In this document: in pieces, positions 30,862 through 40,820 of the stretch
Layout of the letters: each line of letters opens with the position of its first letter
How positions within the stretch are numbered: position 1 is the first letter of the stretch
DNA from: Turneriella sp.
Lineage (GTDB): Bacteria > Spirochaetota > Leptospiria > Turneriellales > Turneriellaceae
DNA length: 64,000 bases
Direction of reading: 5' to 3'
NCBI GenBank assembly: GCA_019186965.1
Contig: JABARV010000015.1
Location: 62,001 to 126,000, forward strand
Position numbers and translations under genes: made by a program
The notes under the pieces: model-generated
Told to the model about the DNA's origin: nothing
The model's input: only the letters and a program-made list of their open reading frames with translations
The model's database searches: none

Positions 30862-32340
30862 TTATTCGATGCTGCTCGTGATAACACGTATCGCCGAAAA
30901 ATTTAAGAGCTCTGACGCAGGTAGCGGGGGGGGAAGTTTCTCCGATACCCGTGGCTTTGGGTGTATGTAAGTACTTTCAGGAGAGTACAGTTCGAGTTCG
31001 TTGTTGGCAACAGGAAATTCTTTGGGCTTTGTATGCGCATACGTATCGGTAATTGTCACCCATCCGGTAGGTTGGATAAAAACTTGCAGATACGCCTTTT
31101 CATGGTTTTTATCGAGATCGTAAAATAGCATTTTACGGCATGGAACACCCAAAGCACGGTAGATTGCACAGTGGAGTTTTTTATCGATAGATGTATCTTT
31201 TTGTACGGCAGCTATCGCATAAATGGGATGTTTTCCGTCATTTTTTTTAAGCCACGTATTGCGGAAGTTATCTACTATTTTTTTCTCGTTGGTATTTAAA
31301 GTAGATAAATCTAAGTATGCATGGACTTCGTCGGGAAGGGTGGGGTTTTTAAAATACTGCCGCAGTAGTTGCCCGTTAAAAATATGCGTTAAATTAAAAA
31401 GCGTCGCTTGGAATTGTAGTTCGTAAGTATGGACTTTCTCCGTACTTTTTTGTTCGAGGGTTATTGTAGAAGTATACGCCCCGTCTTCTTGCCTTTGGAA
31501 GCGCGTTGTGGGTTTTGCACGAAGCCCCGTAAGGCGCTGGTGTGCAGTCATAGGCAAAATTGCGAAGCGGACCACCATTTTACTTTCGCGTAACCTATCT
31601 TCAGTGCTCCATGGCAAAGCAACGCCTAACTTTGCCGAAAGAGTAAAATTGCGTTTTGCAGCCGCGACGTAATTTTCGGTTTCTATAAAGTCAATTGAAC
31701 GTACTTGCCCCGGACGCGAGACATACATCGCACCGTCTATAAATGCAATGCCGTACGTCGATTGCGGTAGTGGCAAAAAACTTACCTGTGTACCGTCTTT
31801 TGGCGAGAGCTTTATCGCTTTGTTATCTTTGGTGATAACCCACAGAAAACCTTTGTAAAAAGTCATCCCGCGTACATCTGTATCGATTTCGGGAGTGAAC
31901 GAACCAAATTGCATTCTATCCACCAGATGTACGCGATAAATTTTTTTATCGGCGCGGTTAAAAATGTATGCCTGGTGCATATCGAGCGCGATTGCAACGG
32001 GATCGTCAATACCTTTGAGTGGAATTTTATCGACCAAGTCGCCGTTGATGGGATTGATAACGTAAATAAAATTGGGTGCAACGGTAACTAAGTGGGGTTG
32101 CCAAAATGCTAAATCGCGTATACCGTAAGGAAGAATGCGCGTAGCGAGTATTTTTTTTTGTGTAAAGTCGTACCCTGTAAGGGAACGATTTTGCGCATCG
32201 CCGACCCATAAAATAGAGCCGTCGTACGCGAGCCCTAAAGGAAGTTTTGAGTCTATTTCAATATTGTCTGTAAAAAGGGGAAGGGGAATGAAAAAAAGTA
32301 TAAATACGCACTTCAGTATTTTGTGTGCCATTTTTTTCAT
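30862..32340 (-). CDS. Exported beta-propeller protein with degenerate transglutaminase-like domain
   Basis: 492 aa with a signal peptide (ILKCVFILFFIPLPLFT). Residues of about 30-250 form propeller-like repeats (LPLGLAYDGSILWVGDAQNR, VRGMTFYKGFLWVITKDNKA, YGIAFIDGAMYVSRPGQVRS). The second half resembles a transglutaminase-like domain: KKLHCAIYRALGVPCR followed by EKAYLQVFIQPTGWVTITDT. The catalytic Cys normally lies well before the RALG helix end and the catalytic His normally precedes the W-V-E-V strand; here no Cys is at the first site and Lys replaces the His, so it is predicted to be non-catalytic. Last gene of the fecR/M16 operon, 9 bp behind the M16 gene. Confidence 0.75.
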   Translation of the reverse strand: MKKMAHKILKCVFILFFIPLPLFTDNIEIDSKLPLGLAYDGSILWVGDAQNRSLTGYDFTQKKILATRILPYGIRDLAFWQPHLVTVAPNFIYVINPINGDLVDKIPLKGIDDPVAIALDMHQAYIFNRADKKIYRVHLVDRMQFGSFTPEIDTDVRGMTFYKGFLWVITKDNKAIKLSPKDGTQVSFLPLPQSTYGIAFIDGAMYVSRPGQVRSIDFIETENYVAAAKRNFTLSAKLGVALPWSTEDRLRESKMVVRFAILPMTAHQRLTGLRAKPTTRFQRQEDGAYTSTITLEQKSTEKVHTYELQFQATLFNLTHIFNGQLLRQYFKNPTLPDEVHAYLDLSTLNTNEKKIVDNFRNTWLKKNDGKHPIYAIAAVQKDTSIDKKLHCAIYRALGVPCRKMLFYDLDKNHEKAYLQVFIQPTGWVTITDTYAHTKPKEFPVANNELELYSPESTYIHPKPRVSEKLPPPLPASELLNFSAIRVITSSIE

Positions 32341-39187: not shown

Positions 39188-39193
39188 TATAAT
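39188..39193 (+). promoter_or_regulatory. -10 box for the cobalamin-riboswitch transcript
   Basis: A perfect TATAAT at 39188-39193. The best -35 at 17 bp is only TTATTT (39165-39170). Initiation near 39200 would put the whole riboswitch in the leader. Confidence 0.5.
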
Positions 39194-39204
39194 TTGTTTT
39201 TTGT

Positions 39205-39465
39205 AAGGGTATCCTAAAAGGTATCTTTGCAAAAAGAGGAAGTCCGGTGCGATTCCGGCGCTGACCCGCAACCGCAATGGGGTTTGCCAAAGAGACGTTT
39301 CGCGCAACGCGCGAATGAAAGCGTAAGGCAGCCAAGCGCTTTCAAGTCTCGACGCAAACCCTTAGCCGGGAACTCTTGCGTACACTGCCCGAGGACACGG
39401 CGGTGTACCGAAAACGTTTGAGTAAATACTTTATGCTCAAATAGCGGGCTCTTTTTTACAGGAGC
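39205..39465 (+). promoter_or_regulatory. Cobalamin (AdoCbl-class) riboswitch with RBS-masking hairpin
   Basis: The conserved core reads AGAGGAAGTCCGGTGCGATT, then CCGGCGCTGACCCGCAACCG (39235 region onwards), the characteristic P3-P6 part of B12 riboswitches; a variant B12 box AGCCGGGAACTCTTGC is near 39364. The aptamer ends near 39410. Downstream, TTTGAG (39417-39422) can pair with CTCAAA (39436-39441), and GCTC (39448-39451) can pair with GAGC (39462-39465), which would cover the GGAG ribosome binding site at 39461-39464. That suggests translational repression when cobalamin binds. The regulated gene begins at 39472. Confidence 0.88.
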
Positions 39466-39471
39466 TTTTCC

Positions 39472-40563
39472 ATGAAAAAAAAATCTACAAGATGGCGGTA
39501 TCTCGCTTGGGCGTTCAGCCTCACTTTTGTCGCGTGTACAAATGACGATACTTCAACCTTGTGTTCATTAACGGCATCACCTGATGTAGTTTTGGCGTAC
39601 ACACACTCGGCAGATTATGCGACGTACAAACTCGACTGGATTGAAAAAAACAATTCTACGTTTACCGTGAAAGCAAACCAACTCAGTGTTGCTTCCAGCG
39701 GACTTAAATCTCCCACTTTCACAAGTGATTATATCTTGCTTGTCGATAGCAGTGCATCGGGTAAACTTTACGTTTACAAACGTTCCGATTTAACCCTCGC
39801 AGGACAAATTACTTTGGGTGATTACCCGCAAGAAATGGCGCTTGTAGGCTGTGTTGCATATATCCCCCTCTACGGTGGATTTGCAAGCGCATCGGATACA
39901 TTAAAGCGTGTCGATTTATCTGCCTTACCGTCACTTTCTTTGCTTTCGGATATTACCGTTGGCCAAAAGCCATCCCCCATCCGAAAATTTTCTAGCGACA
40001 AAGTTTATGTGGCAAACCAAGATTCATTAAATAAATCACAAGCATCAGTTTCTATCATCAGTATATTAACTGATACTGTTACCACTAACATCAACGTTGG
40101 CGAAAATCCTTCTGATTTACAAAGCGATGGTACGCGTGTATGGAGCTACAACGCTAAATGGTTTGGTGGCACCGCAGCAAGCCTCACCTACTTTCCTTTG
40201 AGTGGCGGAACACCAACGAACATAACAACTTTCCCGACAGTCTACGCGCCTGCTTTTGGAGGCAGGATGGCGTTTAGTAATTCGTTAGGCTATTTGCTTT
40301 TAACTAATGGTACAACACTTTCAGACGGGAGTTCCCTCTTCCACCTCTTTTCGATTAGCGGTACAACGGTCAATAGCACAGCAGTCGATGCAACAAACCA
40401 ATACCGTTTTGTCGGGGCGGGCGGTACCTACCTCTACAAAATCCATAATGGCGACGGATCGACTTCGGCTTTAACGACAACCATCGAAAATATGAATGGT
40501 ACAGTTGTAACAACGCAAACACTTACAAAAGACTCAGATATGGCTTTTTGGCCTGGCCACTAA
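39472..40563 (+). CDS. B12-riboswitch-controlled lipoprotein with YncE/BtuG-like beta-propeller
   Basis: 363 aa. The signal peptide ends with a lipobox (LTFVACTND, Cys22), so it is a lipoprotein. The mature part has regular propeller blades: TSDYILLVDSSASGKLYVYK, LAGQITLGDYPQEMALVGCV, KVYVANQDSLNKSQASVSII, TTNINVGENPSDLQSDGTRV. These are YVTN/YncE-like repeats of the sort found in BtuG of Bacteroides, a surface lipoprotein that captures cobalamin for BtuB. The riboswitch directly upstream makes a cobalamin role likely, but no btuB, btuF or btuCD gene is adjacent; binding of B12 is inference. ATG follows ACAGGAG. The stop is followed by an inverted-repeat element. Confidence 0.8.
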   Translation: MKKKSTRWRYLAWAFSLTFVACTNDDTSTLCSLTASPDVVLAYTHSADYATYKLDWIEKNNSTFTVKANQLSVASSGLKSPTFTSDYILLVDSSASGKLYVYKRSDLTLAGQITLGDYPQEMALVGCVAYIPLYGGFASASDTLKRVDLSALPSLSLLSDITVGQKPSPIRKFSSDKVYVANQDSLNKSQASVSIISILTDTVTTNINVGENPSDLQSDGTRVWSYNAKWFGGTAASLTYFPLSGGTPTNITTFPTVYAPAFGGRMAFSNSLGYLLLTNGTTLSDGSSLFHLFSISGTTVNSTAVDATNQYRFVGAGGTYLYKIHNGDGSTSALTTTIENMNGTVVTTQTLTKDSDMAFWPGH

Positions 40564-40570
40564 AGAGGCA

Positions 40571-40820
40571 GTGCGCGAGTTGGCGCCTGTGCGCCAACTC
40601 GCTGAAGCAATTTTTTTACAAATTTTTGTACACTATTTTACACAAATTCCCCCGCGAATTGTTCCAATTCGCTTTTCGAGGGGCGAAGACGCCCAAATTT
40701 GTGCAAAATTTCGCAATTTTGAGCGAACCGCGTACAAAAATTTGCAAAAAAATTGCCCCTTCATAACCATCGCACGAGTTGGCGCACAGGCTCTTGGCAC
40801 ACTGGCTCCAACTCGCGCAC
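40571..40820. mobile_element. MITE-like 250-bp inverted-repeat element
   Basis: Terminal inverted repeats of 17 bp: GTGCGCGAGTTGGCGCC (40571-40587) and, as its reverse complement with one mismatch, GGCTCCAACTCGCGCAC (40804-40820). A second, inner inverted repeat of 25 bp matches at 24 positions (40607-40631 with 40732-40756), and weaker complementarity continues inward (TTTTACACAAATT with AATTTGTGCAAAA). The left end itself forms a perfect 12-bp hairpin (40575-40586 with 40591-40602) followed by a T7 run, so it can also terminate the lipoprotein transcript. No open frame or clear target-site duplication is visible. It occupies the 40564-40887 gap. Confidence 0.8.

Follow-up and report, generated by a model that had tools for sequence, protein, structure and literature searches.

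A cobalamin riboswitch ahead of a predicted BtuG-like propeller lipoprotein in a Leptospira-class spirochaete

The locus described here raises the question of whether a lipoprotein gene that stands behind a cobalamin riboswitch, with no B12 gene among its neighbours, serves the capture of cobalamin in a spirochaete. In gut Bacteroides, BtuG proteins capture vitamin B12 at the cell surface. BtuG, the propeller lipoprotein to which such a protein would have to be compared, has been reported only from Bacteroidetes (PMC6143338). The cobalamin riboswitches published for Leptospira precede btuB and cbtAB/cob or a cobaltochelatase-like gene (PMC3493377, PMC3953431), and in a search that left out subscription papers we found no paper on riboswitch-controlled propeller lipoproteins in spirochaetes. 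We analyzed a stretch of 64,000 nucleotides (the window) from a Turneriella sp. contig. As the original prediction had assumed, the host is a spirochaete, with a genome that its gene content places in the Leptospira class.

The riboswitch and its expression platform

The features on which the analysis is based, all of them on the + strand of the window, are as follows:

39189..39392, +, cobalamin riboswitch aptamer (RF00174; cmscan, model 1-189, 29.7 bits)
39380..39408, +, platform hairpin 1, GUACACUGCC / GGCGGUGUAC, loop CGAGGACAC (MFE fold; family alignment)
39416..39442, +, platform hairpin 2, stem around UUUGAG / CUCAAA (MFE fold)
39444..39449, +, GCGGGC motif, candidate kissing-loop partner (conservation)
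39446..39467, +, predicted Shine-Dalgarno-covering hairpin, GGGCUCUU paired with AGGAGCUU (MFE fold, centroid nearly the same)
39472..40563, +, lipoprotein gene, 363 aa, predicted BtuG-like beta-propeller (ORF; homologues; AlphaFold2; Foldseek)
40575..40617, +, candidate terminator stem-loop (inverted-repeat search and sequence)

A default Rfam search of the window, in which the gathering score is applied, did not report any cobalamin riboswitch, because the aptamer scores 1.8 bits below the gathering score of RF00174 (31.5 bits). When the leader was searched again with E-values, the segment from 39189 to 39392 aligned to RF00174 end to end (model 1-189) with 29.7 bits and an E-value of 6.7e-6 in a 401-base search, or 1.2e-5 when the whole genome was searched. 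Thus, the B12 riboswitch core predicted in front of the lipoprotein gene was recovered over the full length of the model by its E-value, and was missed at the gathering score. The aptamer contains the core GAGGAAGUCCGGUGCGAUUCCGGCGCUGACCCGCAACCG and the B12-box-like segment AGCCGGGAACUC, and the RF00174 core and box were recovered in the family leaders that we examined as well. The element is like RF00174 in its full-length match, its core, its B12-box-like segment and the covered ribosome-binding site, and differs from it in its sub-threshold score and in a family-specific platform, which comprises the CGAGGACAC hairpin and the GCGGGC motif.

The part of the leader that lies 3' of the aptamer folded into three hairpins with a minimum free energy of -33.1 kcal/mol (z -3.6), and none of 200 shuffled sequences folded as well. 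The first hairpin, which overlaps the 3' end of the Rfam match, showed changes on both sides at 7 of its 8 pairs in an alignment of 12 family leaders, with 90.6% of the cells paired and a loop that is near-constant across the 12 leaders. Support for the second hairpin was weaker, as 57% of the cells were paired in the family alignment. The GCGGGC motif was invariant in all 12 aligned leaders and present in 13 of the 14 examined; it is complementary to CCCGC of the aptamer, and judging from this complementarity it may be the kissing-loop partner of that segment. The last hairpin, in which GGGCUCUU pairs with AGGAGCUU, spans the bases from 5 to 26 upstream of the ATG and lies over the Shine-Dalgarno sequence in the MFE fold, in agreement with the ribosome-binding-site-masking hairpin that had been proposed.

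The score below the cut-off (29.7 versus 31.5 bits) is what one might expect if the aptamer had decayed and an ordinary YVTN lipoprotein gene stood beside a relic. We regard this as very improbable, as the core and platform are conserved, compensatory changes occur across the family, and aptamer and gene stay linked, amid differing neighbouring genes, even where protein identity has fallen to 30%.

Just past the stop codon of the lipoprotein gene, a perfect 12-bp stem-loop is followed, 8 bases further, by a run of T, so that the transcript is probably one gene long. The stem-loop was not listed by a consensus terminator scan, in which the T run has to adjoin the stem. The interval that separates the lipoprotein gene from the bactofilin gene holds a nested inverted-repeat element of about 250 bases (40571-40820), MITE-like in appearance.

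The lipoprotein and its likeness to BtuG

The encoded protein appears to be a lipoprotein, as was predicted: it starts with a putative signal peptide with a lipobox-like FVA|C22, in which Cys22 is the likely site of lipidation, and the lipobox cysteine is invariant in all three members of the family. Surface export cannot be judged from a spirochaetal lipobox. By sequence, the protein revealed little about its fold. Pfam gave no match, a phmmer search of PDB sequences gave none either, and scanning the genome contigs with the single protein sequence found nothing; NCBIfam returned a weak YVTN repeat (TIGR02276, E 0.0097). The AlphaFold2 model, calculated from an alignment of three sequences, is an all-beta propeller (pLDDT 71.7, pTM 0.76) that is good to about residue 250 and poorly predicted in the C-terminal third. 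Together with the weak YVTN repeat, it is consistent with the YncE/YVTN-type propeller that had been expected.

When the model was compared by Foldseek with 350,542 PDB chains, ranks 1-13 were all taken by BtuG1, BtuG2, BtuG3 or the BtuG-type structure 3DSM (E 3.9e-10 to 8.3e-9, TM-scores 0.57-0.65), and the first match other than BtuG was the YVTN propeller 1l0q. In the case of the more distant homologue from genome G011, which is about 29-30% identical, the first three ranks of its predicted model were BtuG3, BtuG1 and BtuG2, while AztD, a propeller of another uptake system, was among the lower matches. Thus, BtuG is the best structural match for the models of two diverged members of the family, which fits the BtuG-like character proposed for the protein.

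Several observations speak against reading the protein as a BtuG. It does not match PF16819, the Pfam family of BtuG-type propellers, and the TM-scores lie between 0.57 and 0.65 for a model built from three sequences. In a PDB profile search, the YVTN protein 1l0q came first, followed by the BtuG chains 8ptf, 8ptd and 8blw (E 0.001-0.008; 8BLW is BtuB1G1, PMC10404256), and this similarity was weak, local and carried by YVTN-type repeats. As generic YVTN propellers come a close second in E-value, the likeness has to be viewed with caution. In addition, the corresponding riboswitch of sister genomes stands before lipoproteins of other families (see below). With PF16819 unmatched and the profile similarity weak, the protein is like BtuG in its predicted fold and in its regulation.

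BtuG1, BtuG2 and BtuG3 of Bacteroides thetaiotaomicron (PMC6143338, PMC10404256) are likewise lipoproteins with a propeller of similar length and a cobalamin riboswitch upstream. In contrast to them, the window protein comes from another phylum, is 11-18% identical to them, and is not encoded beside btuB. A further difference concerns the lipoprotein export signal, as the one described for BtuG belongs to Bacteroidetes. In BtuG2, the pocket is lined by Trp194, Trp272 and Tyr316, and the invariant residues of the window protein include W224, Y240, Y311 and Y322. As to the features of BtuG proteins, the predicted fold type (in models of moderate confidence) and the putative lipoprotein nature agree, and a riboswitch is present; however, btuB lies on another contig under a riboswitch of its own rather than together with the propeller gene. 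The predicted protein thus resembles BtuG in fold and regulation, and departs from it in sequence family and in its linkage to btuB. BtuH and DUF4465 (BtuJ) are further accessory lipoproteins of riboswitch-controlled B12 uptake loci (PMC8941943, PMC13398666) with folds that differ; DUF4465 was not found in 61 relatives of the host.

The genes around the lipoprotein gene encode a GSDH-type protein, thiD, trpD, bactofilin and recJ, none of which is a B12 gene. Elsewhere in the window (30862-32340, - strand), a 492-aa protein gave two weak matches, one of them N-terminal and to the repeat family DUF6923, the other transglutaminase-like.

Conserved riboswitch linkage and a second locus with BtuB

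Among 61 related genomes, we found two full-length homologues of the window protein, one in a genome of the same genus (G006, 52% identity) and one in a genome of the same family (G011). A family profile run against 393 genomes of the phylum returned the same full-length members and otherwise only short matches. These weak matches look like generic YVTN proteins and were not counted in the family; where their loci were scanned, no cobalamin riboswitch turned up. By contrast, all three full-length members lie directly behind a cobalamin riboswitch, and the aptamers in front of the two homologous genes in G006 and G011 score 32.6 and 34.4 bits, both above the 31.5-bit cut-off. The riboswitch-preceded homologues anticipated in other spirochaetes thus do exist, and chance is a poor explanation of a linkage kept in three members.

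The genome of the window (G000), like those of G006 and G011, contains two cobalamin riboswitches, one of them being the window leader and the other lying on contig 21 ahead of an operon of the order lipoprotein, BtuB, lipoprotein. The first gene of this operon encodes a lipoprotein of the LIC_13355 family (NF033170, E 6e-58), the second a TonB-dependent receptor with BtuB proteins as its only PDB matches, and the third a lipoprotein of about 400 aa, the family of which has no relative in the PDB by sequence. We considered whether the third gene is a paralogue of the window gene and obtained no support for this (BLASTP E 0.77, hhalign probability 1.7%). Operons of this type recur across the family. 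The description of the lipoprotein gene as solitary, with no btuB, tonB or ABC gene beside it, therefore holds for its neighbourhood and does not hold for the genome as a whole. The contig-21 riboswitch gave only a partial Rfam match, because 140 bases that begin and end with 21-base inverted repeats (L035 4050-4210) split it ahead of P3; possibly they represent a small mobile element with an effect on regulation.

The genome, which is 99% complete, encodes MetH and methylmalonyl-CoA mutase, while no Peripla_BP_2 protein (BtuF type), no FecCD protein (BtuC type) and no CbiC was found in it. As the two enzymes are present and CbiC is absent, the organism very likely needs an imported corrinoid. 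Taken together, the aptamer, the covered Shine-Dalgarno sequence, the lipoprotein signal, the propeller fold, the riboswitch linkage, and a B12-requiring genome devoid of BtuFCD-type parts and CbiC are supported by computation. In our view, the window gene probably encodes an induced B12-capture lipoprotein of the outer membrane, which hands corrinoids to the BtuB encoded on contig 21. At low cobalamin, the aptamer would stay open and leave the ribosome-binding site free, so that the lipid-anchored propeller would be made, alongside BtuB and its partners from the contig-21 operon. Once on the outer membrane, the propeller would capture corrinoids with its face and pass them to the BtuB-type TonB-dependent receptor. 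At high cobalamin, the aptamer would be expected to fold, GCGGGC would dock, the hairpin would hide the Shine-Dalgarno sequence, and synthesis would stop.

DUF6580 and other lipoproteins in the same riboswitch slot

In both G006 and G011, the gene directly after the propeller gene encodes a DUF6580 membrane protein. More generally, the second riboswitch locus of the relatives consists of a lipoprotein gene followed by a DUF6580 gene (PF20221) in five genomes of the family, and the lipoprotein is the propeller in G006 and G011, a LIC13354-like protein in G005 and G002, and a 178-aa protein in G009. In G003 and G000 the second riboswitch locus is without DUF6580. The G000 genome has its DUF6580 gene on contig 9 (L068 6330-6851), beside a two-domain ABC ATPase, and no riboswitch was found there. 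The window propeller gene is best read as separated from its usual DUF6580 partner.

Outer-membrane capture has one chief rival. In it, the lipoprotein would work in the periplasm in place of the missing BtuF, taking over cobalamin from BtuB and delivering it to a carrier in the inner membrane, which may be DUF6580. The 99%-complete genome, with neither a Peripla_BP_2 nor a FecCD protein, leaves room for such a role, and the propeller and DUF6580 in G006 and G011 fit a pair of binding protein and membrane protein at least as well as they fit a BtuB cap. However, the best fold matches are BtuG proteins of the surface, and the DUF6580 gene of G000 stands apart on contig 9 with no riboswitch found at it; on balance, we consider the periplasmic role rather unlikely.

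DUF6580 is a small membrane protein without a PDB relative by sequence, and we found no paper on it in a search that left out subscription papers. It is a candidate for an inner-membrane B12 carrier. A cobalamin riboswitch was present within the short flanks of 2 of the 24 DUF6580 loci scanned, and just beyond them in at least two more; with so few, the idea rests on the operons of the propeller family. Among the DUF6580 genes behind riboswitch-controlled lipoproteins are those at L004 848-1483, L042 5879-6448 and L048 6582-7136.

Metal transporters and B12-independent isozymes are likewise found under the control of cobalamin riboswitches: in Leptospira, cbtAB lies behind one (PMC3493377), and metE-like ORFs, recognized by eye, follow the element in the related genomes G012 and G007. 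The window protein could accordingly be B12-regulated and handle cobalt or another metal, or serve a function needed when B12-dependent enzymes fail, and the appearance of AztD among the fold matches of the G011 homologue points in the same direction. AztD, however, ranked below BtuG, and the genes at the riboswitch loci of the family are predominantly those of lipoproteins and BtuB-type receptors, which makes such a role improbable.

Capture of B12 on the outer membrane, the reading that we prefer, may be part of a broader scheme. We tentatively propose, as a joint claim that we hold to be possible rather than probable, that the Leptospira class has its own two-membrane B12 route, in which capture lipoproteins under riboswitch control, belonging to several unrelated families (in this case the BtuG-like propeller, elsewhere LIC_13354/LIC_13355-like proteins), deliver to BtuB, and DUF6580 replaces BtuFCD. 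The occurrence of a BtuG-like lipoprotein under riboswitch control in a spirochaete suggests that B12 capture by lipoproteins is more widespread, or had more than one origin. For Leptospira, it hints that lipoproteins so far listed only as hypothetical or as putative adhesins may have B12 functions, and it makes DUF6580 a candidate for the inner-membrane carrier that is missing. Members or weak relatives of LIC_13354 and LIC_13355 of Leptospira occur in the same riboswitch-controlled lipoprotein slots, with no sequence match to the window protein seen; LIC_13355 has been treated as an adhesin, with no mention of B12 (PMC11891782).

In five Leptospira-class genomes, a cobalamin riboswitch is followed by a small lipoprotein gene and then by a gene for a LIC_13355-type lipoprotein (L069 2413-4110, L071 1902-3381, L075 888-2410, L076 719-2289, L077 3732-5311). 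The LIC_13355 family was confirmed in all three of these loci that were scanned, and the small lipoprotein gave a weak LIC13354-family match in one of those scanned. A PP-loop ATPase is encoded downstream in riboswitch loci of two relatives, with a match to PF01902 (diphthamide synthase family) in G006 (L041 2497-3399) and a similar appearance by eye in G002 (L045 3312-4064).
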